From Aquabacterium soli (lineage in GTDB: Bacteria > Pseudomonadota > Gammaproteobacteria > Burkholderiales > Burkholderiaceae_C): 64,000 nucleotides of DNA. Location: assembly GCF_003933735.1 (NCBI RefSeq), contig NZ_RSED01000001.1:248001-312000 (forward strand). Reading direction: 5' to 3'. A program made the position numbers and the translations under genes. The notes below the pieces were generated by a model, which was not told the origin of the DNA, made no database searches, and worked only from the letters and a program-made list of their open reading frames with translations. This document shows positions 2,734 through 42,989 of the stretch, piece by piece (the stretch's first letter is position 1; every line of letters starts with the position of its first letter).

Positions 2734-2736
2734 GTC

Positions 2737-5061: not shown

Positions 5062-5075
5062 GCCGGAGCACAACC

Positions 5076-6500: not shown

Positions 6501-6514
6501 GGCCGGAGCCCCCC

Positions 6515-13895: not shown

Positions 13896-13937
13896 CCTCG
13901 TCGTTGCGACCATCACTACACCAGGATTTCCCCGACC

Positions 13938-15914: not shown

Positions 15915-15943
15915 GCACAGGGCAGGTCACTGGAGTACCCACG

Positions 15944-25090: not shown

Positions 25091-26677
25091 TCAATAGCCC
25101 AGCGCGCAGCCATCCTTTCGCGGATCCGATCCGCTGATCAGCAAGCCTCGGTCCTGGTCCACCACGATCATCTGGCCACCGCCGATGGGCTGGCCGCTGC
25201 GCGTGATGCGGTGTCCGCGCCTGGACAGCTCGGCATCGAGCCAGGCAGGCTGGCTGAATTCCAGATCCAGTTCATCGCCGAAGGCGAAGCTGCGCGGTGC
25301 ATCCAGCGCGGCCTGCGGGTCCATGCCCCTGTCGAGCACGTTGCTCAGCAGGGCCACGTGGCCGGTGGCCTGGTACTGGCCGCCCATCACGCCGAAGGGC
25401 GCGGCCAGTCGGCCGTTCTTCATCAGCATGCCGGGAATGATGGTGTGCAGCGGGCGCTTGCCCGGGGCGATGGCATTGGGGTGCGCGCTCTGCAGGCTGA
25501 AGCCGGCGCCGCGATTCTGCAGCAGCACGCCGCTGCGCGGCGCCACCAACGTGCTGCCGAAGGAGTGGAAGATGGAGTTGATCAGCGACAAGGCGTTGCC
25601 GTCGCGGTCGACCACACACACGTAGACGGTGTCCTTGTGCGCCACCTCCGGCCAGATCACCGGTGGACGTGTGCTGTCCATGCACAGGGCGCGGCGCTGC
25701 ATCGCGGCCCAGTCGTTGGACAGCAGTTCGTCGACAGGAACGTGTGCGTGGCTGGTGTCGGCGAAGAGTGCGTCGCGGTGCGCGTAGGCCAGCTTGCTCA
25801 CCTCGGCCAGCAGGTGGATGCGGTCGGCCTCGCTGATCGCGCCCTCGTCCAGGTCCAGGCCCGACAGCACGTTGAGCATCATCAGCACGCCCAGGCCCTG
25901 GCCGTTGGGCGGGCACTCGTAGACGCGGTGGTCCCGGTAGTCGGTGGCGATGGGCCGCACGACCTCAGGCTGCGTGGCGGCCAGGTCGTCCAGCGTGTGC
26001 AGGCCGCCGCCTGCGCGCAGGCGCTGCACGATGTCTTCGGCCACCCAGCCTTCGTAGAAGCCGGCCCAGCCATGGCGCGCGATGGTGCGCAGCGTCTCGG
26101 CCATGCGGGGCTGGCGGTGCAGCACGCCGGCCGAGGGCGCGCGGCCATGGTGCAGGAACAGCTCTGCAGCCACCGGATCGCGCAGCAGGTGTTCGTCGCG
26201 GGCCCAGTCGAAGGCCACGCGCGGGGCTACCGGGTGGCCGCGCTCCGCTACCTCGATGGCGGGCTGCAGCAGTTCATCCAGGCCGCGTGTGCCATGGTCG
26301 GCCAGCAGGCGGCACCAGGCTGCCACGGCGCCCGGTGTGGTCACCGAATGGGCGCTGTACGGATCGATCTGCGTCATCCCGCGTGATTGGTACCAATCGA
26401 GCGATGCGGCCATGGGCGCGCGGCCTGAGCCGTTGAGTGCGATGGGCTCGCTGGCGCCAGCCGGCAGGTAGAGCGCAAAGCAGTCACCGCCGATGCCCGT
26501 CATCTGCGGCTCGACGATGCCCAGCAGCGCCACGGCCGCGATGCCCGCGTCCACGGCATTGCCGCCACGGCGCAGCACATCGAGCGCGGTCTGTGCGGCC
26601 AGTGGATGCGAGGTGGCCACCGCAGCCTGCGAGGTGTAAAGGGCCGAGCGGCCTGGTTGTGAGAAGTCTCGGGTCAT
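25091..26677 (-). CDS. Ntn hydrolase of gamma-glutamyltransferase family, HpxW/YwrD-like
   Basis: A 528-residue self-processing hydrolase of the GGT superfamily. The predicted nucleophile is Thr350 in DTVYVCVVDRDGNALS, which aligns with the E. coli GGT autocleavage threonine (TTHYSVVD) by spacing to VVD. NRGAGFSL after it and GGNAVDAGIAA near the N-terminus are family motifs. It has no signal peptide, unlike periplasmic GGT, and resembles cytoplasmic members such as YwrD and HpxW oxamate amidohydrolase. It overlaps the TetR stop by 4 bp (ATGA) and is the last gene of the four-gene leftward operon. Amide hydrolysis is likely; the substrate is not known. Confidence 0.85.
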   Translation of the reverse strand: MTRDFSQPGRSALYTSQAAVATSHPLAAQTALDVLRRGGNAVDAGIAAVALLGIVEPQMTGIGGDCFALYLPAGASEPIALNGSGRAPMAASLDWYQSRGMTQIDPYSAHSVTTPGAVAAWCRLLADHGTRGLDELLQPAIEVAERGHPVAPRVAFDWARDEHLLRDPVAAELFLHHGRAPSAGVLHRQPRMAETLRTIARHGWAGFYEGWVAEDIVQRLRAGGGLHTLDDLAATQPEVVRPIATDYRDHRVYECPPNGQGLGVLMMLNVLSGLDLDEGAISEADRIHLLAEVSKLAYAHRDALFADTSHAHVPVDELLSNDWAAMQRRALCMDSTRPPVIWPEVAHKDTVYVCVVDRDGNALSLINSIFHSFGSTLVAPRSGVLLQNRGAGFSLQSAHPNAIAPGKRPLHTIIPGMLMKNGRLAAPFGVMGGQYQATGHVALLSNVLDRGMDPQAALDAPRSFAFGDELDLEFSQPAWLDAELSRRGHRITRSGQPIGGGQMIVVDQDRGLLISGSDPRKDGCALGY

Positions 26678-27387
26678 GGTTTGGTGCGTCGGGTTGGTTT
26701 CGTGTCCTTGGGGTGCCCCAAGGCGCTGACCGAGCCGTGGCTCAGGAAGCCGGCCAGCATCTGGTGGTTCTGCTCGCGGTGCGCGGCCTGCCAGTCGGGG
26801 GCGAGCAGGTCCTGCTTGAAGATGCGCGACAGCGTGTGGGCGTGCGACTTGCCGTAATAGGCCAGGCTGACCATGGTCACGTACAGGTGCAGGGCGTCGA
26901 TGCCGTTGCGGAACACGCCGTCGGCCTGGCCGCGCTGCAGCAGCGCGTTGATCAGGTCGAGCACAGGCGAGGCCTGCTGCGGGATGCGCGAGGACTTGCG
27001 CAGGTGGGCGGCCTTGTTGAGGTTCTCGAAGGCCAGCAGTTGCAGCAGCTCGGGGTGGCTGGAGAAGTGGCCATCGATGAAATCGAAGAGCTGCAGGATG
27101 CCGTCCAGCGGGGTGGCATCGGAGAAATCCAGTTGCAGCTCTTGCTCGCGCAGGCGGGTCAGCACATCCTCGAGCACGCGGGTGTACAGCGCATCCTTGC
27201 CCCCGTGGTAGTGGTAGAGCATGCGGATGTTGGACTTGGCCCGCTTGGCGATCTGCTCGGTGCGCGCGCCGCTGAAGCCCTTGGCCGCGAACTCGGCGGT
27301 GGCGGCTTGGAGGATGCGGGCCTGGGTCTTTTCGGGATCCCGCTTGGCGGGGCGCTTGGGCGCGGGCTTGGTTGTCTTGGCAGGCAT
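26674..27387 (-). CDS. TetR-family regulator, RutR-like
   Basis: A 237-residue repressor-type protein. The N-terminal helix-turn-helix is at about residues 20-65 (AATAEFAAKGFSGARTEQIA then NIRMLYHYHGGKDALY), and the ligand domain looks like the RutR type. The basic first 18 residues and C-terminal tail are disordered. It lies inside the leftward operon, 16 bp after the amidase and overlapping the HpxW-like gene by 4 bp, so it is co-transcribed with its likely targets. The palindrome at 29588-29625 is a candidate operator for both divergent operons. Confidence 0.87.
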   Translation of the reverse strand: MPAKTTKPAPKRPAKRDPEKTQARILQAATAEFAAKGFSGARTEQIAKRAKSNIRMLYHYHGGKDALYTRVLEDVLTRLREQELQLDFSDATPLDGILQLFDFIDGHFSSHPELLQLLAFENLNKAAHLRKSSRIPQQASPVLDLINALLQRGQADGVFRNGIDALHLYVTMVSLAYYGKSHAHTLSRIFKQDLLAPDWQAAHREQNHQMLAGFLSHGSVSALGHPKDTKPTRRTKP

Positions 27388-27403
27388 GGTCAGCGGGTTC
27401 TTC

Positions 27404-28579
27404 TCATGAGGAGGTCAGGCGCAATGCCAGGTCCAGCAGTGGCAGGTCGGTGCCGGGCGCCCCGATCAGCGACAGGCCGAGGGGCGTTCCGTCATCCAGC
27501 GTGCCCAGGGGCAGGGTGATCTGCGGCAGGCCGGCATGCCCGGCCAGGGCGCACAGCGCCAGGGTGCGTTGGTAGAAATCGCCGCGGTGTGCATCACTGG
27601 CACCGCGCCGCAGCGGGGCCATGGGCGAGGTCGGCAGCACCCACACCTGCGGTGTGCGCGCCATCAGGGCGTGCAGGCGGTGGCCTTGCTGCGTGCGCCA
27701 GGCGGTCCAGCGGGCGATCTCGTCATCGCCCAGGGAAAAGATGCTGTCAAAGCGTGGTGCGATGGCCGATCCGAAGCGGGGCTGCGCGGTCTTGATCCAG
27801 GGCCCCAGGTGCGTGCGGATCTCTGCGGCCTGCAGCACCTGGTAGGCGCGCAGCCAGTCGGCCATCGGGGCCCCGAAGACATCGGCATGTGCCGTGGCTC
27901 CCAGGCGCCGGGCGATGGGCTGCAAGGTGTCGCGCACCTCGGCATCTGCCAGCGCCCAGGCTTCATCGAGCATCACCAGCGGCGCGGCATCTGGCGCGCA
28001 GGCGTTCGTGCCGCCCAGCAGCACCTGGCCAGCCCGGCGCAGCGTGTCCGCGTCGCGCGTGAGCCATCCCACCGTGTCGAACGAGGGCGCGAAGGGCACG
28101 ACACCCGCCAGTGACACGCGCCCATGGGTGGGCCGCATGCCGAACAGGCCGCAGAAGGATGCGGGGATGCGCACCGATCCGCCGGTGTCCGTGCCCAGCG
28201 CGATGTCGGCGAGGCCGCCCGCCACGGCCGAGGCCGAGCCGCTGGACGAGCCACCCGGCAGCCGATCGGGCGCACGCGGGTTCAGCGGTGTGCCGTGGTG
28301 CGCGTTCTCGCCTTCCAGGCTGAAGGCCAGTTCATCGGTGATGGTCTTGCCCACCAGCGTGGCACCCGCGGCCAGGCAGGCGGCCACGGCCGGGCTGTGG
28401 CTCAGCGCCGGCGTCTGGGCGGCGGCCCAGTCAGGATTGCCGCCCCGGGTGATCTCGCCCCGCACATCGATCAGGTCCTTCACGGCCAGGCGCAGGCCAT
28501 CGAGCACGCCACGGCCGGTGGGCGGGTGCTCCCGGCGCGGGCCGGGTACGAAGGCGCCCAGGGCATCGCTGTGGGTCAT
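27404..28579 (-). CDS. Amidase (amidase signature family)
   Basis: A 391-residue soluble amidase. The Lys-Ser-Ser triad is readable: Lys34 in LAVKDLID, cis-Ser111 in LPGGSSSGS and nucleophile Ser135 in DTGGSVR, with spacings of 77 and 24 residues like those of the family. It is shorter than AtzE-type members (about 450), so the substrate is open. The ATG at 28579 overlaps the stop of the cysteine hydrolase (ATGA), implying coupling. In purine- and triazine-degradation loci of other bacteria, an amidase of this family also stands next to an HpxW-like enzyme. Confidence 0.88.
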   Translation of the reverse strand: MTHSDALGAFVPGPRREHPPTGRGVLDGLRLAVKDLIDVRGEITRGGNPDWAAAQTPALSHSPAVAACLAAGATLVGKTITDELAFSLEGENAHHGTPLNPRAPDRLPGGSSSGSASAVAGGLADIALGTDTGGSVRIPASFCGLFGMRPTHGRVSLAGVVPFAPSFDTVGWLTRDADTLRRAGQVLLGGTNACAPDAAPLVMLDEAWALADAEVRDTLQPIARRLGATAHADVFGAPMADWLRAYQVLQAAEIRTHLGPWIKTAQPRFGSAIAPRFDSIFSLGDDEIARWTAWRTQQGHRLHALMARTPQVWVLPTSPMAPLRRGASDAHRGDFYQRTLALCALAGHAGLPQITLPLGTLDDGTPLGLSLIGAPGTDLPLLDLALRLTSS

Positions 28580-29376
28580 GCGCCTGCCTTCAGGGCTTGC
28601 AGCACCTGGCCTGAGCCGGTCACGAAGCCAAAGCACTTCTTGACGTTCCAGATCGTCGCCTCGGTGCAGAAGGCGGGTGACGATGTCGCGCAGCAGTCCT
28701 CCAGCATCACGCAGCCATAGCCCAGGAAATTGGCGTCCGTCAGCGAATGCAGCACGCACTGGTCGGTGTTCACGCCCGCGAACAGGATCGTGCGCACACC
28801 CAGGTTGCGCAGGATGCTGTCCAGCGGCGTGTCCCAGAAGCCGCTGATGCGGTACTTGTCGACGCTGATGTCGCCGGGCAGGGGCTTGAGTTCGTCGACC
28901 ACGGCAGCGGCCCACGAGTCCTTCTCGAGCACATTGCCGCGCCCGCCGGGCAAGGGGTCGCCCAGGCCTGTGCCATGGCCCTGCGGCTTGTACAGGTGGA
29001 TCTGGTTGGGCGGCATGTTGGCCAGGTCGGGCCGGTTGCCCCAGTTCACCCAGATCACGGGCACCTTCGCATCGCGCAACGCCGGCAAGAGCTTGCGCAA
29101 GGGCTCGATGGGCGTGCGGTCGCTCTGGTAGTCGCCGCCGATGTGGTCCACCCAGCCGTCCTTCGTGCAGAAATCGTTCTGCATGTCGATCACGATGATG
29201 GCCGTGCGCTCCAGGTCGACCACCAGGTTCTGCGGCGCGGCCTGCAGTGGCAAGGGGCGTGGCGGCGGCGGGGGCATGGCCATGTCCACGGTGCCCGGCG
29301 TGGCGCGCCAGTGGTATTGCCGGGACACGCCCAGGGCGCCGCCTTCGGGCGTTTCGGGGTTGGGAACAGCGGTCAT
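28576..29376 (-). CDS. Isochorismatase-family cysteine hydrolase, RutB-like
   Basis: A 266-residue cytoplasmic amidohydrolase. The catalytic triad is Asp64 (VIDMQNDF), Lys174 (VDKYRISGF) and Cys207 (NTDQCVLHS); the spacings nearly equal those of RutB ureidoacrylate amidohydrolase. The stretch SGFWDTPLDSILRNLGV is also RutB-like. Biuret hydrolase is another relative. The start is the ATG at 29376 with AGGAGA 6 bp upstream; the frame is open for 14 more codons. The N-terminal 55 residues are proline-rich and unlike RutB. It is the first gene of the leftward operon, divergent from the importer. Confidence 0.88.
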   Translation of the reverse strand: MTAVPNPETPEGGALGVSRQYHWRATPGTVDMAMPPPPPRPLPLQAAPQNLVVDLERTAIIVIDMQNDFCTKDGWVDHIGGDYQSDRTPIEPLRKLLPALRDAKVPVIWVNWGNRPDLANMPPNQIHLYKPQGHGTGLGDPLPGGRGNVLEKDSWAAAVVDELKPLPGDISVDKYRISGFWDTPLDSILRNLGVRTILFAGVNTDQCVLHSLTDANFLGYGCVMLEDCCATSSPAFCTEATIWNVKKCFGFVTGSGQVLQALKAGA

Positions 29377-29587
29377 CGCACTTCTCCTGTCATCACCAGA
29401 ACTCGGGGCCGGGTGCACGTTCGCGGTGCCTGGTGCTTCATCGTGGGTCGCGCCGCACCAGATCGGGCGGTGCGGCGGATCGCGCGGTGCGCAGCGGGAC
29501 CATCGGCCGGGAAGCGGCTTTTCATGGGGCCTGGCGGGCGATACGAGGGTGAAACAGCGTGTGGCATCGTTATTGCAACCGGTGACG

Positions 29588-29625
29588 TCGCCGAATGTAG
29601 TAACTGATTAATTACATCGCGGCGA
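29588..29625. promoter_or_regulatory. Near-palindromic candidate operator between divergent operons
   Basis: Outer arms TCGCCG (29588-29593) and CGGCGA (29620-29625), and inner arms ATGTA (29595-29599) and TACAT (29613-29617), surround an AT-rich centre. It lies 25 bp before the importer ATG and within a 274-bp divergent region. Size and symmetry suit a dimeric TetR protein, and such a gene is in the leftward operon. It is unlike the E. coli RutR site. Confidence 0.5.
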
Positions 29626-29650
29626 ACAGATCTAAGCGAAAGGAATGCCA

Positions 29651-30640
29651 ATGTCTTCTTCCCTCACTCGCCGGACGTTCGCGGTTTGCGCCGTGGTCGC
29701 CGCGCTGTCTTCTGCAGCCACCCTGCTGGCCACCCCAGCCCAGGCCGCCGATGCCACGCGCATCGGCATCCTGATCCCCGGCTCCAAGTCGGACAAGGGC
29801 TGGATGGAATCTGGCTACGACGGCCTGGTGGCCGCGCAGAAGGCGCACGGCGACAAGATCAAGGTGCAGATGATCGAGAACATCAACTACGCCGACATGG
29901 AACAGGCGCTGACCAACCTGGCCAGCAAGAACCAGCTGGTGATCGGCGTGGGCGGGCAGACGCAGGCCGCGGTGATGAAGATCGCCAAGCGCTTTCCCAA
30001 GACCAAGTTCTCCATCGTGGGTGGCAACAAGGGCGACAGCCTGCCCAACGTGGCCGGCTACGACGTCAAGCAGGCCGAGATCGCCTTCGTGGCCGGCGCC
30101 GCCGCCGCGATGCTCAGCAAGAACGGCGCGGTGAGCTACGTGGGCGGCATGGAGATCCCTTCCATCGTCAACGCCGGCAAGGAGTTCGGCAAGGGTGCGG
30201 CCTACATCAACCCCAAGATCAAGTACGTCGAGAACTACACGGGTGATTTCGACGACGTGGCCAAGTCGAAGGAGGCCACGCTGGCCGCCATCGCGCAGGG
30301 CGCCGATGTGCACTATCACATCCTGAACCTGGGCCTGCGTGGCATGGAGCAGGCGGCCAAGGAGAAGGGCACCAAGATCATCGGCAGCTACACCGACCGC
30401 TGCGGTAGCGACCCACTGTACGTGGCCTACAGCATCACCGGCGTGGGCTACCAGGTGGAATACGCCATCAAGGAAGTGGTGAGCGGCAGCTGGAAGGCCG
30501 GCTACAAGCCCTTCGGCCTGGCCATGGGCGCCAAGGCTTCGGACATGCTGATCTGCGGCGGCACCGCGGCCCAGAAGACCAAGCTCGAAGAGATCAAGAA
30601 GGACATCCTCAGCGGCAAGATCAAAGTGCTGGAAGGTTGA
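29651..30640 (+). CDS. BMP-family ABC transporter substrate-binding protein
   Basis: A 329-residue periplasmic binding protein of the basic membrane protein family, which in known cases binds nucleosides, purines or related compounds. It has a long signal peptide starting with Arg-Arg (SLTRRTFAV), possibly Tat-type, ending near TPAQAA. Typical features are IGILIPGSKSDKGWMESGYDG and IIGSYTDRCGSDP. The ATG at 29651 is preferred: AAAGGA sits 8 bp before it and only 2 bp before the alternative at 29645. It heads a five-gene operon. Confidence 0.9.
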   Translation: MSSSLTRRTFAVCAVVAALSSAATLLATPAQAADATRIGILIPGSKSDKGWMESGYDGLVAAQKAHGDKIKVQMIENINYADMEQALTNLASKNQLVIGVGGQTQAAVMKIAKRFPKTKFSIVGGNKGDSLPNVAGYDVKQAEIAFVAGAAAAMLSKNGAVSYVGGMEIPSIVNAGKEFGKGAAYINPKIKYVENYTGDFDDVAKSKEATLAAIAQGADVHYHILNLGLRGMEQAAKEKGTKIIGSYTDRCGSDPLYVAYSITGVGYQVEYAIKEVVSGSWKAGYKPFGLAMGAKASDMLICGGTAAQKTKLEEIKKDILSGKIKVLEG

Positions 30641-30645
30641 TCGGC

Positions 30646-32265
30646 ATGAGCGTGTGGCCTGCCGCCGTCGAGCCTGACAGCGCGACGCCTTCGTCTGCGC
30701 CGGCCAGCGCAGGGGCGCTGCTCTGCCTGCAAGGCATGGGCAAGCGCTTCGGCGCCTTCCGGGCGCTGGGCGATGTCTCGCTGGCCATCGCGCCCGGTGA
30801 GATCCACTGCCTGCTGGGCGAAAACGGGGCGGGCAAGTCCACGCTGTGCAACCTGATCTTCGGCGTCTACCAGCCTGACGAAGGCGTGATGACGTTCGAT
30901 GGTCAGCCCTACAAGCCCACGGGCCCGGCCGATGCGCTGGCACGCCACGTGGCCATGGTGCACCAGCACTTCAGCCTGGTGCCCGACCTGAGCGTGGTGG
31001 ACAACCTGCTGCTGGGCCAGTCGCGTGGGGTGCTCAAGCGCGGCGAGTGCGCAGATCGCATCGCGGATCTGTCGCGCCGCTTCGGGCTGGCGCTGGATCC
31101 GCGTGCGCGCATCCAGGATTTGTCGGTGGGCGAACGCCAGCGGGTGGAGATCGTCAAGTGCCTGATGCGCGATCCGCGCCTGCTGGTGCTGGACGAGCCC
31201 ACCGCCGTGCTGCTGCCCGACGAGATCGCTGCGCTGCTGGGCGTGTGCCGCCGTGTGGCGGATGAAGGCTGCGGCGTGATGCTGGTGACGCACAAGCTGG
31301 CCGAGATCCGCCAGGTGGCCGAGCGGGCCACGGTGCTGCGCGGTGGCCGTGTGGCCGCGAGGTCCGAGCAACCGGGGCAGGAGCTGGACGAACTGGTGCG
31401 CGCGATGATCCAGCGAGATCTGGCCGACACGTCCGCCACGCCTGAAAGCCGAGCTGCGAGCGCCAGGCCCATGGCCAGCGTGCCCGGCGTCGATGCCATC
31501 CGCACCGGCCGCGTGCCCGAACCCGCGCTGATGGCCGATGGCCTGAGCGTGGTCGATGCGGATGGGGTCAAGCGCCTGGACCGCTTCACCCTCATCGTGC
31601 GCCCTGGCGAAACCGTGGCCGTGGCTGGCGTCGAGGGCAACGGTCAGAGCGAGCTGGCGGCGGTGCTGTCGGGCATGCGCCCGGCCACCGAGGGCCGCTT
31701 CTTCATCAACGGCCAGGAGATGACGGGCCGCGCCCCGCGCGAGATCACGCGCGCTGGCGCCGGCATCGTGCCCGAAGACCGCCATGCCGTGGGCTGCATC
31801 ACGGGCCTGCCCGTGGCCGAGAACCTGTTCCTGGACCGCCTGCAGCGCTTCAGGCGGTGGGGCCTGCTGGACCGCCGCGCCATGCGCGAGCAGGCGCTCG
31901 AACTGATGCAACGCTTCGACGTTCGCGCCGCCAGCCCCGACGTGGGCTTTGGCGGCTTGTCCGGCGGCAACCAGCAGAAGGCCGTGCTGGCGCGTGAGCT
32001 CACGCTCGATGGTCTGCGCTTTCTGCTCGCCGCACAACCGACGCGCGGGCTCGATGTGGGCGCGGTGCAAGCCGTCTACGGTCACATCCAGCAAGCCTGC
32101 GACAAAGGCGTGGGCGTGCTGCTGATTTCTTCAGAACTGGACGAACTCATCCGCGTGGCCGACCGCGTGGTGGTGCTGTACCGGGGCCGCGTGATGGGCG
32201 AATGCCCGGCCGAGCCCGCGCAGCGCGACCGCATCGGTGCCTGGATGGCGGGACACGAGGCATGA
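30646..32265 (+). CDS. ABC transporter ATP-binding protein, two ABC domains (BMP-type importer)
   Basis: A 539-residue dual ATPase as in ribose- and nucleoside-type importers. The first domain has Walker A at residues 58-65 (GENGAGKS), signature LSVGERQRVEI and Walker B LVLDEPTAVL. The second has the degenerate P-loop normal for the family (EGNGQSE), signature LSGGNQQKAV and LLAAQPTRGLDVG. ATG 30646 is taken; a TTG overlapping the previous stop is possible. It energises the two permeases that follow with 4-bp overlaps. Confidence 0.92.
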   Translation: MSVWPAAVEPDSATPSSAPASAGALLCLQGMGKRFGAFRALGDVSLAIAPGEIHCLLGENGAGKSTLCNLIFGVYQPDEGVMTFDGQPYKPTGPADALARHVAMVHQHFSLVPDLSVVDNLLLGQSRGVLKRGECADRIADLSRRFGLALDPRARIQDLSVGERQRVEIVKCLMRDPRLLVLDEPTAVLLPDEIAALLGVCRRVADEGCGVMLVTHKLAEIRQVAERATVLRGGRVAARSEQPGQELDELVRAMIQRDLADTSATPESRAASARPMASVPGVDAIRTGRVPEPALMADGLSVVDADGVKRLDRFTLIVRPGETVAVAGVEGNGQSELAAVLSGMRPATEGRFFINGQEMTGRAPREITRAGAGIVPEDRHAVGCITGLPVAENLFLDRLQRFRRWGLLDRRAMREQALELMQRFDVRAASPDVGFGGLSGGNQQKAVLARELTLDGLRFLLAAQPTRGLDVGAVQAVYGHIQQACDKGVGVLLISSELDELIRVADRVVVLYRGRVMGECPAEPAQRDRIGAWMAGHEA

Positions 32266-33362
32266 ACACATTGACGCTTCCATCAAGCCAGCCAAGGTGG
32301 CTGCAGGCGCTGACCGCCCGGCCTGCGCTGTGGGTGTCGCTGGCGGCCGTGATCGGCTCCTTGCTGGTGGGCCTGCTGCTGGTGCGCCTGCTGGGCGTGC
32401 CGGTCGTGGATGCTGCCCTGGCTTTTGCCGATGGCGCCTGGGGCTCCCCCTATGCCTTCGCGGCCTCCGTCAACCGCAGCCTGGTGTTCGCGCTGGTAGG
32501 CATCGGCTTCGTGCTGGCCCAGCGCGCCAACCTGACCAATGTGGGTGGCGAGGGGCAGATCGCGGTGGGCGGCATCGCGGCCACGGCCGTGGCGCTGTAC
32601 GGCCATGTGCAGGATCTGCCGATGGGCCTGGGTTTCGTGCTGCCCATGCTGGCCGCCGCGCTGGCCGGTGGCCTGTGGGGCGCATTGGCCGGCGTGCTCA
32701 AGGCCAAGGCGGGCACCAACGAGGTGATCGCCACCTTGCTGCTGTCCTTCATCGCGGTGTGGATGGTCTATGGCAGCGTGCAATCCGAAGCGCTGCTGCG
32801 CCAGCCCATGACGCACTCCAACACCCTGCCCGAATCGCTGGAGGTCCCCGAGGCGACCAGGCTGCCATTGCTCACGGGCGACTACAGCATGCCCTTGCAC
32901 CTGGGCCTGCCCATCGGACTGGTGCTGGCCGTGGTGGTGGCCCTGGTGCTGAACAAGACGGTGCTGGGCCTGCACCTGCGGGCCGTGGGCCTGAACCCTG
33001 TGGCCGCGCGCCGTGCCGGCATCGCGGTGGGCAGCACGGTGGTGGGCGCGCTGTTCGCGGCCGGCGTGTTCGGCGGCCTGGCCGGCGCCTGCATGCTGCA
33101 GGGTGAGCAGTACTCGCTCAAGGCCGGCTTCTCATCGGGCTTTGGCTTCGATGGCCTGGTGGTGGGGCTGCTGGCGCGCGGCTCGGTCACCGGGGTGATC
33201 GCGGGCTCTCTGCTGTTCGGCTTCCTGCGCTCGGGCGGCATCAACATGGAGATGGTGGCCGGCGTGCCCACGGCCCTGGTCGTCGTGATCCAGGGGCTGA
33301 TCATCGTGGTGCTGGCCGGCGCGGCCCTGGCCATGGACCGCCACAAGGAGACCGAACGATGA
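32262..33362 (+). CDS. ABC transporter permease, BMP-type importer (first)
   Basis: A 366-residue inner-membrane permease of the branched-chain/ribose permease superfamily with about eight to ten membrane segments; ANLTNVGGEGQIAVGG is the usual motif, and AKAGTNEVIATLLLSFIAVW marks the nucleoside-type subgroup. The ATG at 32262 overlaps the ATPase stop (ATGA). It forms a heterodimer with the next permease. Confidence 0.9.
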   Translation: MNTLTLPSSQPRWLQALTARPALWVSLAAVIGSLLVGLLLVRLLGVPVVDAALAFADGAWGSPYAFAASVNRSLVFALVGIGFVLAQRANLTNVGGEGQIAVGGIAATAVALYGHVQDLPMGLGFVLPMLAAALAGGLWGALAGVLKAKAGTNEVIATLLLSFIAVWMVYGSVQSEALLRQPMTHSNTLPESLEVPEATRLPLLTGDYSMPLHLGLPIGLVLAVVVALVLNKTVLGLHLRAVGLNPVAARRAGIAVGSTVVGALFAAGVFGGLAGACMLQGEQYSLKAGFSSGFGFDGLVVGLLARGSVTGVIAGSLLFGFLRSGGINMEMVAGVPTALVVVIQGLIIVVLAGAALAMDRHKETER

Positions 33363-34300
33363 TCGACGGCATGGCATCGGGAATGGGCTGGGAGATGGCC
33401 GCCGTGTTCGCCGGCTCCACGGTCCGGCTGGCGGCGCCGCTGCTGCTGTCGGCCACGGGGGAGCTGGTCAGCGAACGTGCCGGCGTGCTCAACATGAGCG
33501 TGGAGGGGATGATGCTCACGGGCGCCTTCGCGGGCGCGGTGGGCTCATGGGCGACCGGATCGCCCGCGATGGGCCTGCTGATCGGCGTGCTGGCCGTGCT
33601 GCCCGTGGCGCTGCTGCAGGCGGTGCTGAGCATCACCTTGCGCGCCAACCAGATCGTCACGGGCGTGGGCATCAACATCCTGGTGCTCGGCGCGACCACG
33701 CTGGCCTACCGCGAGATCTTCGGCGGCCGCTCGCGCACCGAGATCCCGGGCCTGGCCAAATGGGCACCGCCCGGTCTGGCCGACATCCCCTTGCTGGGCG
33801 AGCATGTGTTCCACCAGACCTGGCTGCTGTACGCAGGCCTGGTCATCGTGGCCTTGATCGCCTGGATGATGCGCCATACCGCGGTGGGCCTGGCCCTGCA
33901 CGCGGCCGGCGCCGCACCCAAGGCGGTCGACAAATCGGGCCTGTCGGTCACGGCCATCCGCTACGGTGCGGTCATGCTCACGGGGGTGATGTCGGCGCTG
34001 GCCGGCTGCTTCCTGTCCATCGGCGACATCCACACCTTCACCGAAGGCATGACCAATGGCGCGGGCTACCTGGCCATCGCCGCCGTGATCTTCGGCAACT
34101 GGCGCATCGGCCGCATGCTGGGCGCCTGCCTGCTGTTCGGCGCGGCCACGGCGCTGCAGTTCCAGTTGCCGGCCTTTGGCATCCACGTGCCCAGCGCCTT
34201 GCTGATCATGCTGCCCTACCTGCTGGCCCTGCTGGCCGTGGGTGGGCTGGTGGGGCGGCAGACCGCGCCGGCCTACCTGACGCAAGCCTACGTTCGATAA
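33359..34300 (+). CDS. ABC transporter permease, BMP-type importer (second)
   Basis: A 313-residue inner-membrane permease, the shorter partner typical of these importers. It shows ERAGVLNMSVEGMMLTGAF near residues 40-60 and the ANQIVTGVGINIL motif, with about eight segments. The start overlaps the previous stop by 4 bp. The gene pair order (long then short permease) matches known nucleoside importers. Confidence 0.92.
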   Translation: MIDGMASGMGWEMAAVFAGSTVRLAAPLLLSATGELVSERAGVLNMSVEGMMLTGAFAGAVGSWATGSPAMGLLIGVLAVLPVALLQAVLSITLRANQIVTGVGINILVLGATTLAYREIFGGRSRTEIPGLAKWAPPGLADIPLLGEHVFHQTWLLYAGLVIVALIAWMMRHTAVGLALHAAGAAPKAVDKSGLSVTAIRYGAVMLTGVMSALAGCFLSIGDIHTFTEGMTNGAGYLAIAAVIFGNWRIGRMLGACLLFGAATALQFQLPAFGIHVPSALLIMLPYLLALLAVGGLVGRQTAPAYLTQAYVR

Positions 34301-34311
34301 GGATTGACACC

Positions 34312-35196
34312 GTGCCCGCGCACCGCCCCCTCGTCTCGCACCAGCGCTTCGACTACGACCCCATCCACCAGCGCGCCCTGAAGGCCTGGCCCGGCGGCAG
34401 GCGCCTGGCCGTCTACCTGGGCTTCAACCTGGAGCACTTCGCTTTTGGCGAGGGCCTGGGTGCGCGCCTGGCGCCGGCCGCGCAAGGCGGCCCGGACGTG
34501 CTGAACTACGCCTGGCGCGAGTACGGCAACCGCGTGGGCGCCTGGCGTTGCCTGGAGCTGTTCGAGCAGCTCAAGCTGCCCGCCGGCGTGATCCTCAACA
34601 CCGCGCTGTACGACCATTGCCCGGAGCTGGTCGCCGCCTTCGCCAAGCGTGGCGATGAGCTGATCGGCCATGGCCACACCAACGCCGAATCGCAAGGCGG
34701 CATGCCGCCGGAGGATGAGTTCGCGCTGATCGAATCCTGCACACGCCGCATCGAGCTCGAGTCCGGCCAGCGCCCCACAGGGTGGCTATCCCCCTGGATC
34801 GCCGAAAGCGCCGCCACGCCCGATCTGTTGGCCCGCGCCGGCTACCGCTACACGCTCAACTGGTGCCACGACGACCAGCCCACGGTGATGCGCACCGCGC
34901 ATGGCGACCTGTGCGCCGTGCCTTACCCGCAAGAGCTCAACGACATCCCGATGATCGTGGCGCGCCAGATGACGGGGCCGGATTTCGCCGACATGATCGT
35001 GGACCAGTTCGACGAGATGCTGGAACAGTCAACCCAGCAGCCCTTGGTGATGGGCATCGCGCTGCACCCTTACCTGGTGGGCCAGCCGCACCGGCTGCGC
35101 CACCTGCGCCGCGCGCTCACGCACATCGTGCAGGCCGGGCAGCAGGATGTGTGGTGGACCACGCCAGGCCGCATCTGCGAAGCCGCATCGGCCTGA
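34312..35196 (+). CDS. Polysaccharide deacetylase-fold hydrolase, PuuE-like
   Basis: A 294-residue soluble CE4-fold enzyme without a signal peptide. The layout (WPGGRRLAVYLGFNLEHF, EYGNRVGAWRCLELF, GDELIGHGHTNAESQG, HPYLVGQPHRLRHL) resembles the PuuE allantoinase branch more than cell-wall deacetylases, and the absence of an export signal supports an internal substrate. GTG start at 34312 with AAGGA at 34299-34303, 11 bp after the permease, so it is the last gene of the importer operon. It probably hydrolyses a ring or amide in the imported compound; this is inference. Confidence 0.8.
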   Translation: MPAHRPLVSHQRFDYDPIHQRALKAWPGGRRLAVYLGFNLEHFAFGEGLGARLAPAAQGGPDVLNYAWREYGNRVGAWRCLELFEQLKLPAGVILNTALYDHCPELVAAFAKRGDELIGHGHTNAESQGGMPPEDEFALIESCTRRIELESGQRPTGWLSPWIAESAATPDLLARAGYRYTLNWCHDDQPTVMRTAHGDLCAVPYPQELNDIPMIVARQMTGPDFADMIVDQFDEMLEQSTQQPLVMGIALHPYLVGQPHRLRHLRRALTHIVQAGQQDVWWTTPGRICEAASA

Positions 35197-35206: not shown

Positions 35207-37192
35207 TCAGGGCTGCGCCAGGGCCTTTGCGATCTTGTTGCGCCCCACCGTGGGCTTGGGCACGCGCACATCGAACCACCCGCGCACATCGGAATCCACC
35301 CCGATACCGTGCATGAAGTTGTAGATGGCCTTCTTCAGGCCCTGGCCCAGGCGCTCATGGTCGGTGCCGGTCGGATCGATGAAGGCCACGTCGTTGCGCG
35401 CGAAGCCGCCATCGGGCAGAGGCTGCAGCGTCACGCCATAGGCGTCAGGATCCATCCCCACGGGCGAATGCACCGTGCATGCGAAGCGGTGGAAGAACCC
35501 CGACTGGATGCAGCCGTTCTCGAACAGCTGGCGCACGTACTCGAGCGCATCGACCGTGTCCTGCGCCGTCTGCGTGGGAAAGCCATACATCAGGTAGGCG
35601 TGCACCAGGATGCCGGCGTCGGTGAAGGCACGGGTCACACGCGCCACCTGCTCCACCGACACGCCCTTCTTCATCAACTGCAGCAGGCGGTCGCTGGCCA
35701 CCTCCAGCCCGCCGCTGATGGCGATGCAGCCGCTGTCGGCCAGCAGTTGGCACAGCTCGGGCGTGAATGATTTTTCGAAGCGCACATTGCCCCACCACGA
35801 GATGCCCAGCTGGCGCTGGATCAGCTCGTGCGCCAGGGCCTTGAGCACCTTGGGGGGCGCGGCCTCGTCCACGAAGTGAAAGCCTGTCTGGCCTGTCTCT
35901 TTCACGATGGCCTCGATGCGATCGGCCAGCACCGTGGCCGAGGCCGCCTCATAGCGTGAGATGTAGTCCAGGCTCACATCGCAGAAGCTGCATTTCTTCC
36001 AGTAGCAGCCATGCGCGATGGTCAGCTTGTTCCAGCGCCCGTCGGACCAGAGCCGGTTCATGGGGTTGAGCATGTCCAGCAGCGACAGGTAATCGTGCAG
36101 GGGCAGGCCGTCCCAGGTGGGTGTGCCCACGTGCTCGAAGGGCACGTCGGGCTCGGGGTGCCGCACACAGCGCACGGTGCCGCTGCCGTTGTCGTTGCCA
36201 TCACGCACGAAGGTGCGCACCAGCTCGTCGCGAGAGCGGTGGCCGCCCAGGTGCTCCAGCAGGGCCAGCAGCGGGCGCTCGCCCGCGTCCAGCGTCACGA
36301 AATCGACGACATCGAACACGCGTGGCTCGGCCAGCTCGCGCAACTCGGTGTTGACGAAGCCGCCCCCCAGCACCACGCGCACCTGCGGGTACTCGGCCTT
36401 GATGGTCTGGCCGATGCGCAGGGCCGCGTACACGCTGCCCGGGAAGGGCACGGACAGCAGTACCACGTCGGGTTGGTGGCGAAGCACGGCATCCCGCGTG
36501 AGGTCGGCCAGGGTCTGGTCGATCAGGTTGGGTGGTGCGGCCAATGCCTCGGCCAGCGGGTCGAAGCTGTGCTGGCTGGCGGCGATGGACTCGGCATAGC
36601 GCACGAACTCGAAGCGGCCGTCCACAGCCTGGCGCAGCACGTCGGCCAGGTCGTTGAGGTACAGCGTGGCCAGGTGCCGGGCTCGGTCCTGCAGGCCCAG
36701 GCTGCCGAAGGCCCAGGCCAGTGGGTCGCCGCTGTCGTCGTCGGGGTAGGCGTCCAGCGTGGCGAAGCGCGGGCCTTCGGGCAGGTAGGCGCGCGTGTTG
36801 ATGCGGTGGGCCAGCGTGGAGTCGCGCCCTTGCAGAAAGGCGATCACGCGGTTGATGGTGGCCACGTAGCGCGCGTGCTCTTCGATGAAGATGTGCAGCG
36901 TGTCGCTGCGCTGGGCCTCGGGCACGGCGGTGGCGCACTCCAGCAGCTCGCACAGGCCTTGGCGTGAGAGCAGGCGCAGCACCAGCGCCAGGGCCAGGTC
37001 TTCCTGGAACGCCTGCACGCCGCGCGAACGCAGGAATCCGGTCAGGTAGGCCGTGGACGGGTAGGGCGTGTTCAGCTGCGTCATCGGCGGGATGAGCGAG
37101 AGCACGCGCAGGTGCTGGCCCGCACGCAGCTGGCCCGTGTCAGGAGCGGGGCTGGCGCCAGTGGCGATGGGCACGAAGCGGGGAGCGGTCAC
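35207..37192 (-). CDS. B12-binding-type radical SAM protein with Cx4Cx2C cluster motif
   Basis: A protein of about 661 residues with an N-terminal B12-binding-like Rossmann domain (PDVVLLSVPFPGSVYAALRI, VVLGGGFVNTE) and a radical SAM domain. The cluster cysteines are 396, 401 and 404 (GCYWKKCSFCD), i.e. Cx4Cx2C rather than the common Cx3Cx2C. The cobalamin ligand motif DxHxxG is not seen. The start is uncertain: GTG 37192 is proposed, the frame runs on to 37360, and no clear ribosome site is visible. The substrate is unknown and no RiPP precursor or partner enzyme is adjacent. It converges on the PuuE-like gene. Confidence 0.82.
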   Translation of the reverse strand: MTAPRFVPIATGASPAPDTGQLRAGQHLRVLSLIPPMTQLNTPYPSTAYLTGFLRSRGVQAFQEDLALALVLRLLSRQGLCELLECATAVPEAQRSDTLHIFIEEHARYVATINRVIAFLQGRDSTLAHRINTRAYLPEGPRFATLDAYPDDDSGDPLAWAFGSLGLQDRARHLATLYLNDLADVLRQAVDGRFEFVRYAESIAASQHSFDPLAEALAAPPNLIDQTLADLTRDAVLRHQPDVVLLSVPFPGSVYAALRIGQTIKAEYPQVRVVLGGGFVNTELRELAEPRVFDVVDFVTLDAGERPLLALLEHLGGHRSRDELVRTFVRDGNDNGSGTVRCVRHPEPDVPFEHVGTPTWDGLPLHDYLSLLDMLNPMNRLWSDGRWNKLTIAHGCYWKKCSFCDVSLDYISRYEAASATVLADRIEAIVKETGQTGFHFVDEAAPPKVLKALAHELIQRQLGISWWGNVRFEKSFTPELCQLLADSGCIAISGGLEVASDRLLQLMKKGVSVEQVARVTRAFTDAGILVHAYLMYGFPTQTAQDTVDALEYVRQLFENGCIQSGFFHRFACTVHSPVGMDPDAYGVTLQPLPDGGFARNDVAFIDPTGTDHERLGQGLKKAIYNFMHGIGVDSDVRGWFDVRVPKPTVGRNKIAKALAQP

Positions 37193-37302
37193 GGCGGGAG
37201 AACTGAACTGGAGAACTGCGGGATGCGGCAGAAAGGGCAGGGCGGTGCAGCCGCTATTGTCCGGCACCCGCGCCCGCCGTGTGCAGCCGTTACAGTGGCC
37301 CC

Positions 37303-37986
37303 ATGGAACTGCATGTCTGGACAGCCTACCTGGTGGCCACCCTTTTGATCTCGATCTCACCGGGTTCGGGCGCCCTGCTCACGATGACGCACAGCATGGC
37401 CCGCGGGCCGCGCGGCGTGCTGCCGGGCGTGCTGGGCCTGCAGGTGGGTCTGGTGGCGATCATGCTGGTGTCGGGCTTCGGCCTGGGCGCGCTGCTGCTG
37501 GCCTCGGAGCAGGCTTTCCTGGTGCTCAAGTGGACGGGCGCGGCCTACCTGTTCTGGCTGGGCTTGAGCCAATGGCGCTCGGCATCGCGGGGTGCGCAGG
37601 CCGTTGACTCTGAGCCGCAGCCTGATCCGGTCTCGCACCACAGGCCGATACTGGGCGCCACAGCCGTGTCTGCCCACACCCCGGCCCGCGCCTGTTTCAT
37701 GCAGGGCCTGCTCACCAACATCACCAACCCCAAGGGCATCGTCTTCATGGTCGCCGTGCTGCCCCAGTTCCTGGACCCGGCCCGGACGCTCGGCCCGCAG
37801 CTGCTGCTGATCGCGCTGACCAGCGTGGCGGTGGATTTCGTGGTGATGCGCTTCGGCTATGCCACGCTGGCCGCCGGGCTGCAACGGCTGATGCGCCGGC
37901 CCGGCGCTCAGCGCGTGCGTGATCGGCTGTTCGGCGGCGTGCTGATGGGCATGGGCGTGTCGCTGGTGTTCGTCAAGCGTCAGTAG
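37303..37986 (+). CDS. LysE/RhtB family amino-acid exporter
   Basis: A 227-residue inner-membrane protein with about six segments, of the LysE/RhtB export family. It has the N-terminal motif SPGSGALLTMTHSMARG and TNITNPKGIVFMVAVLPQFL in the second half. It would export an amino acid or derivative. The ATG at 37303 starts MELHVWTAYL; the frame is open 24 bp further upstream. It ends with a 7-bp convergent overlap with mksB. It is divergent from the radical SAM gene. Confidence 0.9.
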   Translation: MELHVWTAYLVATLLISISPGSGALLTMTHSMARGPRGVLPGVLGLQVGLVAIMLVSGFGLGALLLASEQAFLVLKWTGAAYLFWLGLSQWRSASRGAQAVDSEPQPDPVSHHRPILGATAVSAHTPARACFMQGLLTNITNPKGIVFMVAVLPQFLDPARTLGPQLLLIALTSVAVDFVVMRFGYATLAAGLQRLMRRPGAQRVRDRLFGGVLMGMGVSLVFVKRQ

Positions 37987-40796: not shown

Positions 40797-40799
40797 CGG

Positions 40800-41585
40800 T
40801 CAGGCCTCGTCGGTGTGCGGGTCGGCGGAAGGCGTGGGCGCTCCGGCAGTGGCGGCGTCATCCACGGGTTCATCGTCCAGTTCGTCTTCGATGATCTCTT
40901 CCAGCGGCGGCTGGGTCAGGGCCAGGGGCAGGTTGCCCGTGAGCTGCTTGGCCTGGGCCAGCACATCGCCCAGGGCGCCTTGCAGGATGCGTGGCGCCAG
41001 CGCGTCGTAGTCGAGCAGCAGATCAAGCAGGGGCCCTTCGGCGATGTCTTCGCCCTTGCGCACGATGAAGCCGTGGTTCTCCAGCCGCTTGAGGTTGGTG
41101 TCCAGGCGTGTCTTCTTGCCCAGCTGCACGCCAAAGTCGGCCAGCAGGGCCTTGTACGACACCATCGGGCTCACGCTGGCGGCGGTGGGCATGGGGCGGT
41201 CCTTGCCGAACATGTCGTTCTGATCGTCGCCGTTCTGGTTGGCGGCGCGCGCGGCCTGGCGCTCGCGCTTGGGCAGCACGATCAGCGCCCACAGCACCAC
41301 CAGCAGCGACACCGCGTCGCGCGGCAGGTCGATGTTGTTGTGGCTGTTCAGGCCCGCCTCGCCGAACACGGTGGCCTCGGCCGGGCGCAGCAGGGCCACG
41401 CTCACGTGGTCGGCATACAGGTTGTCGATCAGGCGCAGGCCCACCTGGGCCAGGCGCTCTTGCGTGGCCTGCCACAGGTCGGCATCGATCAAGGCTCGCT
41501 TGACCTTCGGGTGCTGGCGGGGAAGCCAGCGGCGGGCCAGCAGTTCTGCGGCCAGCAGTGCGGCGTCGTCCATGGAAGAACTCAT
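40800..41585 (-). CDS. mksE: Condensin subunit MksE
   Basis: A 261-residue acidic protein between mksF and mksB. It is a predicted winged-helix kite subunit that binds the kleisin MksF and helps MksB close; LLAAELLARRWLPRQHPKVKRALIDAD opens a mostly helical sequence, and the C-terminal 45 residues are acidic and disordered. Identification rests mainly on size and gene order, since the family is weakly conserved. The gap to mksF is 24 bp. Confidence 0.75.
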   Translation of the reverse strand: MSSSMDDAALLAAELLARRWLPRQHPKVKRALIDADLWQATQERLAQVGLRLIDNLYADHVSVALLRPAEATVFGEAGLNSHNNIDLPRDAVSLLVVLWALIVLPKRERQAARAANQNGDDQNDMFGKDRPMPTAASVSPMVSYKALLADFGVQLGKKTRLDTNLKRLENHGFIVRKGEDIAEGPLLDLLLDYDALAPRILQGALGDVLAQAKQLTGNLPLALTQPPLEEIIEDELDDEPVDDAATAGAPTPSADPHTDEA

Positions 41586-41609
41586 GTCTGGATCAGCGTC
41601 GTGCGCAGG

Positions 41610-42989
41610 TCAGCGTGAAGGGGATGCGGCCGTGCCAGGCGTGGCATCGGCTTTCGTGTGGTCTGTCGGGCCTTTGAAGGCTTCATGCGGCAACGGGCTC
41701 AGCGTGCCTTCGCTGATCAGGGCCACGGCTTCGTCGTCCACCGCCAGGTGGCGTGCGCTGGCCTGCCATTGCCAGGGCGATCGGGCCAGGTCGCCCGTCA
41801 GGCCCTTGAGCGTGCGGGCCTGGCCATCGCCCAGCAGCGGCATCAGCTGCATGCGGTAGGCGGCCTGGGCGAAGCGCCCGCCCAGCACGGCCTCGTGCAG
41901 CGGGCGATCGGCCGGGGCCGCGTCGGCGGGGGCTTGCTGGAACCAGCGGTCGAACAGGCCGATCATCTGGCTCAGCTCTTCGGGCAGCGAGAGCACGCCC
42001 AGCGTGCCATCGGCGGCCTCGGTGGGCGGTGGCAGGCCGGCGCTGCCATCGGCCACGGGGCGGTCGCGCTCGAACTCGCCTTCGGCCACGTCCACCAGGT
42101 CGTGCTGGCTGACCATCACCGGCCGCACGGGCACGGACAGGGCCTCGCCCATCAGCTCGTACAGCGCAGGGTGGTGCTGCAGCCAGCGGCGTACGTCGGA
42201 GCTGGTCAGGCCGGTGCTGCCCAGCGTGACGCGCTGGCGGTCGGCCTGCTGCAGGGCCCGTGTGAACTGGCTGGCCATGGACAGCAGGCGGGCCTGGTCC
42301 TGGCCCAGGGCGCGGGCCTCGCGTTCCAGCCGCGGGTCTTCGTGCTCGGCGCGGATCAGTGCCGTGAGCGCCTGGCCGGCGCGGTCCACCAGCGTCAAGG
42401 CGCGGTCGAAGCGGGGCTGCGCCAGCCGCAGGCGCGATTCGGAGCCGCTGGCGATGGCCTCGGCGAACTCGTCGTGCAGGCGGGCCAGCTGGGCGTGAAG
42501 GTGCTTGAGCTGGTTGGTGTCCACCAGGCCCAGCTGCTGCGCGCCGGCCACCTGGGCCAGCAGCGCCACCATCTCGTCGTGTTCGCCCACGGGCGCCGAT
42601 GTCAGCGAGGCCAGCAGGCCGTGCACCTGCTGCGCCAGGGGCGGCAGGTGGTAATCCTGGGCGGTGGCGTCCCAGGCCAGCAGGTGGATGTCGCGCAGAC
42701 GCTTGAGCGCGCTGTCCAGGGCGTCGGGCAGCAGGGCGTGGAACAGCTGGTTCAGGTCATCGCGCGAGAAGCGGGCCTGGGGCTGGCCCGCCAGGGCCAT
42801 GAACACCCACAGGCGCAGCCGCACCAGGGCCTGCGGCCCGTTGAACAGGCCGCGCAGGGCGTCGATCAGGTCCAGGCGCTGGCCCAGCGCCCAGGCCAGG
42901 GGCTGCTCCGGGGCCAGGCCGGGCTCGCGGAAGTAGCTCTCGAAACTGGGCGAATCGGACAGGTCAGGAGAAGGATGCGCCTCGATCAT
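41610..42989 (-). CDS. mksF: Condensin kleisin-like subunit MksF
   Basis: A 459-residue helical protein, first gene of the three-gene leftward operon, and the predicted kleisin bridging MksB heads with MksE. The N-terminal part (LAWALGQRLDLIDALRGLF) and the region LRLAQPRFDRALTLVDRAGQ are the best recognised features; a proline/acid-rich linker occurs near residues 310-335. Start ATG 42989. Its promoter lies in the divergent 117-bp gap to the small gene at 43107. Sequence evidence alone is moderate; operon structure adds weight. Confidence 0.75.
   Translation of the reverse strand: MIEAHPSPDLSDSPSFESYFREPGLAPEQPLAWALGQRLDLIDALRGLFNGPQALVRLRLWVFMALAGQPQARFSRDDLNQLFHALLPDALDSALKRLRDIHLLAWDATAQDYHLPPLAQQVHGLLASLTSAPVGEHDEMVALLAQVAGAQQLGLVDTNQLKHLHAQLARLHDEFAEAIASGSESRLRLAQPRFDRALTLVDRAGQALTALIRAEHEDPRLEREARALGQDQARLLSMASQFTRALQQADRQRVTLGSTGLTSSDVRRWLQHHPALYELMGEALSVPVRPVMVSQHDLVDVAEGEFERDRPVADGSAGLPPPTEAADGTLGVLSLPEELSQMIGLFDRWFQQAPADAAPADRPLHEAVLGGRFAQAAYRMQLMPLLGDGQARTLKGLTGDLARSPWQWQASARHLAVDDEAVALISEGTLSPLPHEAFKGPTDHTKADATPGTAASPSR

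Follow-up and report, generated by a model that had tools for sequence, protein, structure and literature searches.

Positions 25091-35196 of a 64,000-nucleotide stretch of the Aquabacterium soli genome (contig NZ_RSED01000001.1, positions 248,001 to 312,000; hereafter the window) encode what is probably a nitrogen-regulated scavenging module that imports a ureide and hydrolyzes it to ammonia. An earlier note, made from the letters of this DNA, had described a nine-gene system for the import and stepwise hydrolysis of a nitrogen-rich amide or ureide as nitrogen source. The import-and-hydrolysis part of this interpretation is supported; a conserved set of all nine genes is not. A role in nitrogen supply is supported by a sigma-54 promoter motif before the importer operon, by the pairing of importer and hydrolase genes in three proteobacterial classes, and by an association with TrtA-like triuret hydrolases and allophanate hydrolases.

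All nine reading frames of the note were recovered, and the 4-bp overlaps at 26674-26677, 28576-28579, 32262-32265 and 33359-33362 follow from the coordinates of the open reading frames. On the forward strand, a BMP/PnrA-family substrate-binding protein (29651-30640; Pfam Bmp, PF02608, E 2.1e-42) is followed by a double-domain ATPase of the ATP-binding cassette (ABC) type (30646-32265; ABC_tran, 3.4e-50), by ABC permeases 1 and 2 (32262-33362 and 33359-34300; both BPD_transp_2) and by an accessory PuuE-like enzyme of the polysaccharide-deacetylase fold (34312-35196; Polysacc_deac_1, 2.6e-5). On the reverse strand, a RutB-like cysteine hydrolase of the isochorismatase fold (28576-29376; Isochorismatase, 2.7e-42) precedes an amidase-signature hydrolase of the PRK08310 family (27407-28579; Amidase, 8.6e-63), a TetR-family regulator that is a candidate ligand-responsive repressor (26674-27387; TetR_N with TetR_C_29), and an N-terminal nucleophile (Ntn) hydrolase of the gamma-glutamyltransferase (GGT)/YwrD superfamily, which occupies an accessory slot (25091-26677; GGT, 1.7e-137). 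The two arms diverge from a region of 274 bp (29377-29650) if the BMP protein starts at the ATG at 29651; the ATG at 29645 is also possible. The catalytic residues that the note had named do not occur by chance, since they are unchanged in alignments that include the window and some near-duplicates: Asp64/Lys174/Cys207 in 75 of 75 module RutB-like rows, Lys34/Ser111/Ser135 in 64 of 64 amidase rows, and the nucleophile Thr350 in 19 of 19 GGT-type rows. Pfam confirms the families, but by curated cut-off none of these proteins is RutB, RutR or PuuE. Among the specific names considered, only the amidase reaches a curated NCBI cut-off (NF006169, PRK08310; 452.1 bits over a cut-off of 391). As applied to the window module, the names RutB, RutR, PuuE, BiuH and gamma-glutamyltransferase denote superfamilies only.

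The extent of conservation was judged from a scan of named genomes with a BMP profile, which returned 128 confirmed places. The best 80 of these 128 were kept (the 80 loci), and linkage was counted in the 55 that span 17.5 kb or more, with the 25 shorter ones excluded. Near-duplicates stayed in the counts (L074 and L152 are apparently one genome, L104 and L106 nearly one). The BMP orthologs of the 80 loci are 70-96% identical and come, among others, from Variovorax, Hydrogenophaga, Noviherbaspirillum, Paraburkholderia and Caballeronia, from many Alphaproteobacteria (Bradyrhizobium, Rhodopseudomonas, Rhizobium, Reyranella) and from Pseudomonas neustonica. Many bacteria of soil and water carry close copies. 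The four-gene importer is complete in all 55 long loci. The RutB-like gene is present in 50, the amidase (46-80% identity) in 50 and the TetR gene in 45 of them. This pairing of importer and hydrolase is kept across alpha-, beta- and gammaproteobacteria, and importer and RutB-like gene mostly diverge from one region that bears the sigma-54 motif. The remaining families are more scattered: the GGT-type gene occurs in 18 of the 55, as does AtzE (counted at at least 50% identity, which excludes the distant amidases of 30-42% in L093, L135, L157 and L158), TrtA-like genes in 16, AtzH in 14, AtzF in 12, the PuuE-like gene in 8 and AtzG in 6. The co-occurrence search that the note had proposed for its nine genes finds all nine families together in 5 of the 55 long loci, namely those of a sister species of the host and of four Paraburkholderia. 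In these Paraburkholderia, the gene for the deacetylase-fold enzyme is found on the opposite side, past the GGT gene, and adjoins a transporter of its own, and the GGT belongs to another subfamily. The conserved unit is smaller than nine genes. Within the genus, one genome (G022) carries all nine and another (G010) eight, on a contig that ends inside the module. Variovorax paradoxus VAI-C (L187) and Rhizobium johnstonii TP60 (L188) have annotated GGT, TetR, amidase, cysteine hydrolase and BMP importer genes; a polysaccharide deacetylase is not annotated within 12 kb in either, in plasmid gene tables that are incomplete. The module is rare: among 300 genomes of the order, two have the BMP protein at E 1e-40, and one of these is the host.

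Promoters for sigma-54 follow the -24/-12 consensus TGGCAY-N5-TTGC. The shared 274-bp region contains a complete element of this kind, TGGCATCGTTATTGCA, on the forward strand at 29562-29577 before the importer operon, a feature absent from the earlier note. Motifs ahead of the BMP gene were found in 72 of 82 regions, whereas 50 sets of dinucleotide shuffles gave an average of 0.2 and a maximum of 3. The motif stands at most 400 bp upstream on the same strand in 69 of the 80 loci, with 32 different spacers, and the 1.41 Mb of these loci contain 44 other matches on both strands. Since 0.83 matches are expected by chance in the 64-kb window, which has one, it is position and conservation that give the motif its weight. 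The opposite strand has matches in 25 of the 82 regions; these were not counted as promoters. Among the 23 of these that were listed, 18 overlap the ribosome-binding site before BMP; the other five (L123, L146, L153, L154 and L161) are nearer the RutB-like gene and could be real promoters. Just downstream of the window motif lies an imperfect dyad, TGTAGTAACTGATTAATTACA (29596-29616), which is a candidate TetR operator. The perfect dyad AGTAA-N8-TTACT occurs in 21 of 74 regions, and the maximum for any dyad in ten shuffles was 3. This position downstream of the promoter is where a repressor would block transcription. A weak NtrC-like site on the forward strand at 29414-29430, TGCACG-TTCGC-GGTGCC, has two mismatches to the consensus TGCACC-N5-GGTGCA and is suggestive only; sites with at most two mismatches are weakly enriched (13 of 79 regions compared to 1.5 expected from shuffles). 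In the accessible parts of an rpoN transcriptome study of Bradyrhizobium DOA9, genes with consecutive tags for a BMP protein, two permeases and an isochorismatase are down, and the BMP gene has a sigma-54 site at -73 (PMC13207237). We dropped the idea that this set is the window module; its gene order, as far as given in those parts, better matches the BiuH-type importer of a second host locus, L169.

Genomes with the module commonly also encode enzymes of triuret and allophanate breakdown. These were counted in 53 module genomes (those behind 49 of the 80 loci, plus four genomes with G handles; the genomes behind the other 31 loci lie outside these counts) and in a background of 300 genomes that represents the order only and differs from the module set in lineage and genome size. 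AtzF exceeds its cut-off in 49 of 53 module genomes versus 79 of 300 (Fisher p 1e-20), and TrtA-like proteins are found at E 1e-75 in 47 of 53 versus 44 of 300 (Fisher p 7e-27); for both tests, the background's two module genomes were removed. At E 1e-55, the TrtA-like counts are 47 of 53 and 47 of 300. In the 34 module genomes that, judged by their titles, belong to the order, AtzF is present in 33 and a TrtA-like protein in 30. The linkage takes several forms. In Hydrogenophaga, Hylemonella and Caenimonas, TrtA-like, AtzE and mostly AtzH genes stand on one side of the core, and AtzF mostly on the other; in one such arrangement (L092), the best solved relative of the TrtA-like protein is the triuret hydrolase TrtA (6XIX, 324 bits) and AtzF scores 754 bits against a cut-off of 511. 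Four alphaproteobacterial loci (L141, L143, L145 and L148) have a TrtA-like gene directly after permease 2 and before the amidase, and in four Paraburkholderia loci (L130, L131, L138 and L152) the TetR gene is followed by AtzF. A tie to oxamic transcarbamylase was rejected, as AllG occurs in 4 of the 53 module genomes; we regard this scarcity as neutral for an oxalyl-ureide substrate.

The host itself carries a further locus of this kind, L169 (G000:C63:240500-260400), in which positions 2732-16433 encode a BMP importer, BiuH (416 bits; cut-off 370), NitT-type ABC proteins, a TrtA-like protein (310 bits to 6XIX), AtzF, an AtzH-like protein and a GntR regulator. A single sigma-54 match at 2663-2677 lies 55 bp before the BMP ATG at 2732. 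Judging by its genes, L169 is apparently a complete triuret-biuret-allophanate locus, and the window module is therefore an addition to the triuret pathway and not a copy of it.

These associations raise the alternative that the module is itself part of a triuret/biuret pathway, with triuret or biuret as the cargo of the BMP importer and the RutB-like enzyme as a further hydrolase of these compounds. The strong co-occurrence, the TrtA-like genes within 16 of the 55 loci, and nitrifier BMP importers that stand beside trtA, biuH and atzF in the accessible sections of PMC12625717 would all fit this alternative, but the RutB-like enzyme itself does not. According to the available parts of two structural studies, BiuH holds its ligand through Lys145 and Gln215, and TrtA through Glu72, Lys132 and Gln202 (PMC7948467, PMC5806882). 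These contacts are lacking in all 75 module rows: Ile177 stands at the Lys position and Trp112 at the Glu position in every row, and the Gln position is a gap in the window sequence. The score against the BiuH/TrtA family NF050097 is 148.7 bits, compared to a cut-off of 370. An alignment of 75 module rows, 21 nearer outgroup, 21 TrtA-like and 3 BiuH-like proteins and E. coli RutB gave a midpoint-rooted tree (three outgroup proteins were entered twice) in which module and outgroup rows group with RutB (0.976), opposite a clade of TrtA and BiuH (0.996). Support is 0.865 for the node that unites module and outgroup without RutB, and only 0.57 for the node of the module itself. Without these contact residues, the enzyme appears unlikely to act on biuret or triuret, and their absence together with the tree position led us to reject its assignment as a biuret/triuret hydrolase. 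Furthermore, the host already has BiuH and a TrtA-like protein with a BMP importer of their own, and 6 of the 53 module genomes have no TrtA-like match at E 1e-55. We therefore consider a triuret/biuret module unlikely.

A pyrimidine or hydantoin degradation module, with the RutB-like enzyme acting on a ureido acid and the PuuE-like enzyme as hydantoinase or imidase, would account for residues that the module enzyme has in common with E. coli RutB (Arg176-Ser-Gly-Phe, Trp109, Ser154-Trp155 and Asn244). The RutB cut-off is nevertheless missed by more than half (TIGR03614; 151.3 bits compared to 377.95), and queries with rutA, C, D, E, F and G at E 1e-5 gave no hit in either the window or any of the 80 related loci, the rutG query being partial. 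Since these genes are unmatched, the Rut-type pyrimidine pathway is not indicated and was rejected. At the same threshold, the RutR query has hits in 23 of the 80 loci but none in the window, whose TetR protein scores 42.5 bits against a RutR cut-off of 368 (TIGR03613). Without exception, the module clade has Trp109, Asn111, Trp112, Arg115, Asp117, Arg176, Asn203 and Asp205. The enzyme would work like a RutB/BiuH-type carbamoyl or amide hydrolase and, by the tests made, is a member of neither family.

The PuuE-like gene bears on the same alternative. Its relatives on Polaromonas and Sulfitobacter plasmids neighbor dihydropyrimidinase, N-carbamoylase or racemase genes, as a hydantoin pathway would predict, but the gene occurs in 8 of the 55 long loci, and we rejected it as a core member on this count. 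Overall, a pyrimidine or hydantoin module seems quite improbable. The enzyme has the polysaccharide-deacetylase fold of PuuE allantoinase and a score of 101.8 bits against a cut-off of 424.6 (TIGR03212), which is why it was rejected as a true allantoinase; we retain it as a candidate opener of a cyclic ureide or imide. Among 20 loci with a PuuE-like ortholog, only one (L074) also has the module core. Orthologs of 60-70% identity (L059, L063, L064 near 9300-11900; L051; L054) stand either amid NTF2-like genes and PRK08310-type amidases or beside polyamine-type ABC transporters and hydantoinase genes. The genus may have borrowed this gene from different uptake pathways.

The importer offers a second view of the substrate. 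The AlphaFold model of the BMP protein is confident (predicted local distance difference test, pLDDT, 90.5) and combines the PF02608 domain with a PnrA fold; by Foldseek E-value, its nearest solved structures are AtzT and PnrA. In the parts of the AtzT study that we could draw on, guanine is held in an aromatic sandwich (PMC6834077). This sandwich stays aromatic in the BMP protein (Tyr45 becomes Trp51, Trp194 becomes Phe200), and Asn218 is conserved as Asn226, but Ser97, Phe98, Glu165, Asn169 and Asn220 are replaced by Gly, Gly, Ser, Ala and Gly. Of the eight guanine-contact residues, one is thus identical, two remain aromatic and five are changed. The natural reading of the modeled pocket would be a ligand that is flat and other than guanine. 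That a nucleoside or vitamin importer stands by accident next to unrelated detoxifying hydrolases is highly improbable: the GGT and PuuE-like genes are variably present, nucleosides are the ligands of many solved BMP proteins close to the model, and there is a weak likeness to a putative B6 importer (NF047927; 68.2 bits compared to 400), but importer and RutB-like gene occur together in 50 of the 55 long loci of three classes, mostly divergent from one sigma-54-bearing region.

The accessory slot is filled by different enzymes in different species. The window GGT narrowly misses the curated gamma-glutamyltransferase cut-off (344 versus 358 bits), and its nearest solved structure is 2NLZ (372 bits), compared to 134+93 bits for 5HFT, which we take to be the Klebsiella oxamate amidohydrolase HpxW. 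The GGT of Paraburkholderia and Variovorax is nearest to 5HFT by summed chains (225+171 bits). Because these two forms are about 35% identical and stand on separate branches, the module has probably acquired a GGT-type enzyme on more than one occasion. GGT and AtzE are mutually exclusive, with both present in 1 of the 55 long loci (Fisher p 0.002, relatedness ignored); in this sole locus, L133, the GGT gene lies at the far edge. In Caballeronia and some Paraburkholderia loci, AtzH-AtzE-AtzG adjoin the amidase, and AtzG/E/H also form the hpxX/Y/Z set of Klebsiella. The AtzE of plasmid pADP-1 nests among those of L091, L092, L094, L096, L098, L099, L102, L103 and L107 (69-74% identity), and all nine of these loci also have a TrtA-like gene. 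Most of them suggest a TrtA-AtzE-AtzH-AtzF route that has no BiuH in the locus; triuret operons may be the source of the 1-carboxybiuret hydrolase in the cyanuric acid operon.

Gene content, catalytic residues, conservation, the promoter motif and co-occurrence are read from sequence; regulation, ligand and reaction order are inferred. Taken together, we propose that under nitrogen limitation the motif at 29562 would serve sigma-54 RNA polymerase, putatively under NtrC control, as promoter of the BMP importer operon, with the TetR protein, probably bound to the dyad at 29596-29616, keeping the operon off until the ligand appears. The importer would take up a small planar ureide, which the RutB-like hydrolase and the PRK08310 amidase would cleave in sequence to ammonia or carbamate. 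The last amide would be removed by the GGT-type Ntn hydrolase or, in other species, by AtzE, alone or accompanied by AtzG/AtzH. A cyclic form may first be opened by the PuuE-like enzyme in this genus. The module would in this way be an add-on to a wider nitrogen economy of oxidized urate that includes the triuret-biuret-allophanate locus of the host. Regarding the substrate, we favor a planar ureide of the oxidized-urate family, possibly an oxalyl-ureide. The best single candidate is an oxalyl-ureide such as oxalurate, which the RutB-like enzyme would split to carbamate and oxamate, and oxamate then to oxalate and ammonia; we offer this assignment as tentative and rather doubtful. The wider proposal is equally speculative: a previously undescribed hydrolytic route for oxalyl-ureides (for instance from parabanate via oxalurate and oxamate to oxalate) or for a different polyureide of uric acid oxidation, handled by a third functional class of isochorismatase-fold ureide hydrolase next to RutB and BiuH/TrtA, in a nitrogen-controlled "oxidized urate" regulon together with triuret catabolism in soil- and plant-associated proteobacteria. 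Two observations underlie the oxalyl-ureide version: HpxW-like and HpxXYZ-like proteins can fill the accessory slot, and there is a parallel in nitrifiers, where the available sections of PMC12625717 place the oxalurate genes allFGHK beside triuret genes. The substrates listed in the note are inseparable by sequence, save that biuret and triuret appear unlikely for the RutB-like enzyme.

Several observations weigh against the proposed scavenging module or against the oxalyl-ureide version of it. The RutB-like gene and the amidase are each missing from 5 of the 55 long loci, none of GGT, AtzE (at least 50% identity), AtzG, AtzH, AtzF and TrtA is present in 17 of them, and no sigma-54 motif was found in 10 of the 82 regions. 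Co-occurrence with the triuret genes partly reflects relatedness, because the background is unlike the module genomes in lineage and size. The PRK08310 amidase family has no named function in the family library. The window GGT, nearest to 2NLZ, is about 33% identical to HpxW, a rough figure since the reference is partial (an unannotated 411-aa frame before Klebsiella hpxX, compared to 528 aa in the window); in view of this distance from HpxW, the oxamate step has weak support in the window. The Hydrogenophaga-type AtzE is 69-74% identical to true 1-carboxybiuret hydrolase and 51-55% identical to HpxY, which favors triuret over oxalurate chemistry for the slot in these loci.

Several known systems resemble the module in part. 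The TrtA-BiuH-AtzF systems of Herbaspirillum and nitrifiers share a BMP importer and isochorismatase-fold and amidase-signature hydrolases; they have a sigma-54 motif before BMP (in the host copy L169) and occur mostly in the same genomes, sometimes in the same locus. By contrast, the window hydrolase belongs to another clade without the biuret/triuret contacts, its BMP protein is 26% identical, the amidase is a different one, and TetR replaces GntR. The Rut pathway shares the RutB-side isochorismatase fold, the Arg-Ser-Gly-Phe motif and a TetR-family regulator, but the module imports through an ABC transporter, misses the curated cut-offs and has no match to the other rut genes searched. The GGT-type hydrolase and the AtzG/AtzE/AtzH set of Klebsiella hpxWXYZ both recur in the accessory slot, in different species; in the module they replace each other, whereas in Enterobacteriaceae the two hpx sets stand together, according to the available portions of PMC6219798. 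With atzDGEHF and AtzT of pADP-1, the module shares the importer family and, in related loci, AtzE/H/F, while most guanine contacts of AtzT are changed. No cyanuric acid hydrolase is among the Pfam families found in the window module.

The same portions of PMC6219798 describe beta-proteobacterial clusters of allophanate hydrolase, atzG-atzE-atzH, ABC transporters and amidases, for which uptake of nitrogen compounds was suggested, and some of the present loci are probably of this kind. The RutB-like/amidase/BMP core, its sigma-54 motif and its tie to triuret hydrolases were not found in the literature searched, which covered few subscription journals. Once identified, the ligand of the module would be a second molecule of triuret-type chemistry, for which the nitrogen-type promoter and the genomes with triuret hydrolase provide a handle. 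Its identification would also assign a function to proteins of a clade currently labeled RutB-like, cysteine hydrolase or amidase.

Some further genes of the host deserve mention. In locus L082 (G000:C107:19000-38900), positions 3430-11773 place a match to a ring-opening amidohydrolase of the barbiturase/cyanuric acid hydrolase type (51%) near a paralog of the RutB-like gene (40%), together with genes for two NMT1-type binding proteins and an amidohydrolase; L081, L185 and L186 likewise pair a RutB-like with a ring-opening gene. Two pectinacetylesterase-family genes are present in the genome, one in the window (45809-47083) and one adjoining the triuret locus (L169:1302-2579). Directly behind the module and convergent with it, the reverse strand of the window encodes a radical SAM protein with a weak B12-binding match (35207-37360). 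It is followed on the same strand by tightly packed frames (37357-42989) arranged around an SMC-like ATPase of 938 aa, which weakly resembles Wadjet JetC (81 bits). Three frames neighboring this ATPase have no Pfam or PADLOC match at the limits used, and the group possibly represents a diverged SMC-type defense or condensin system.

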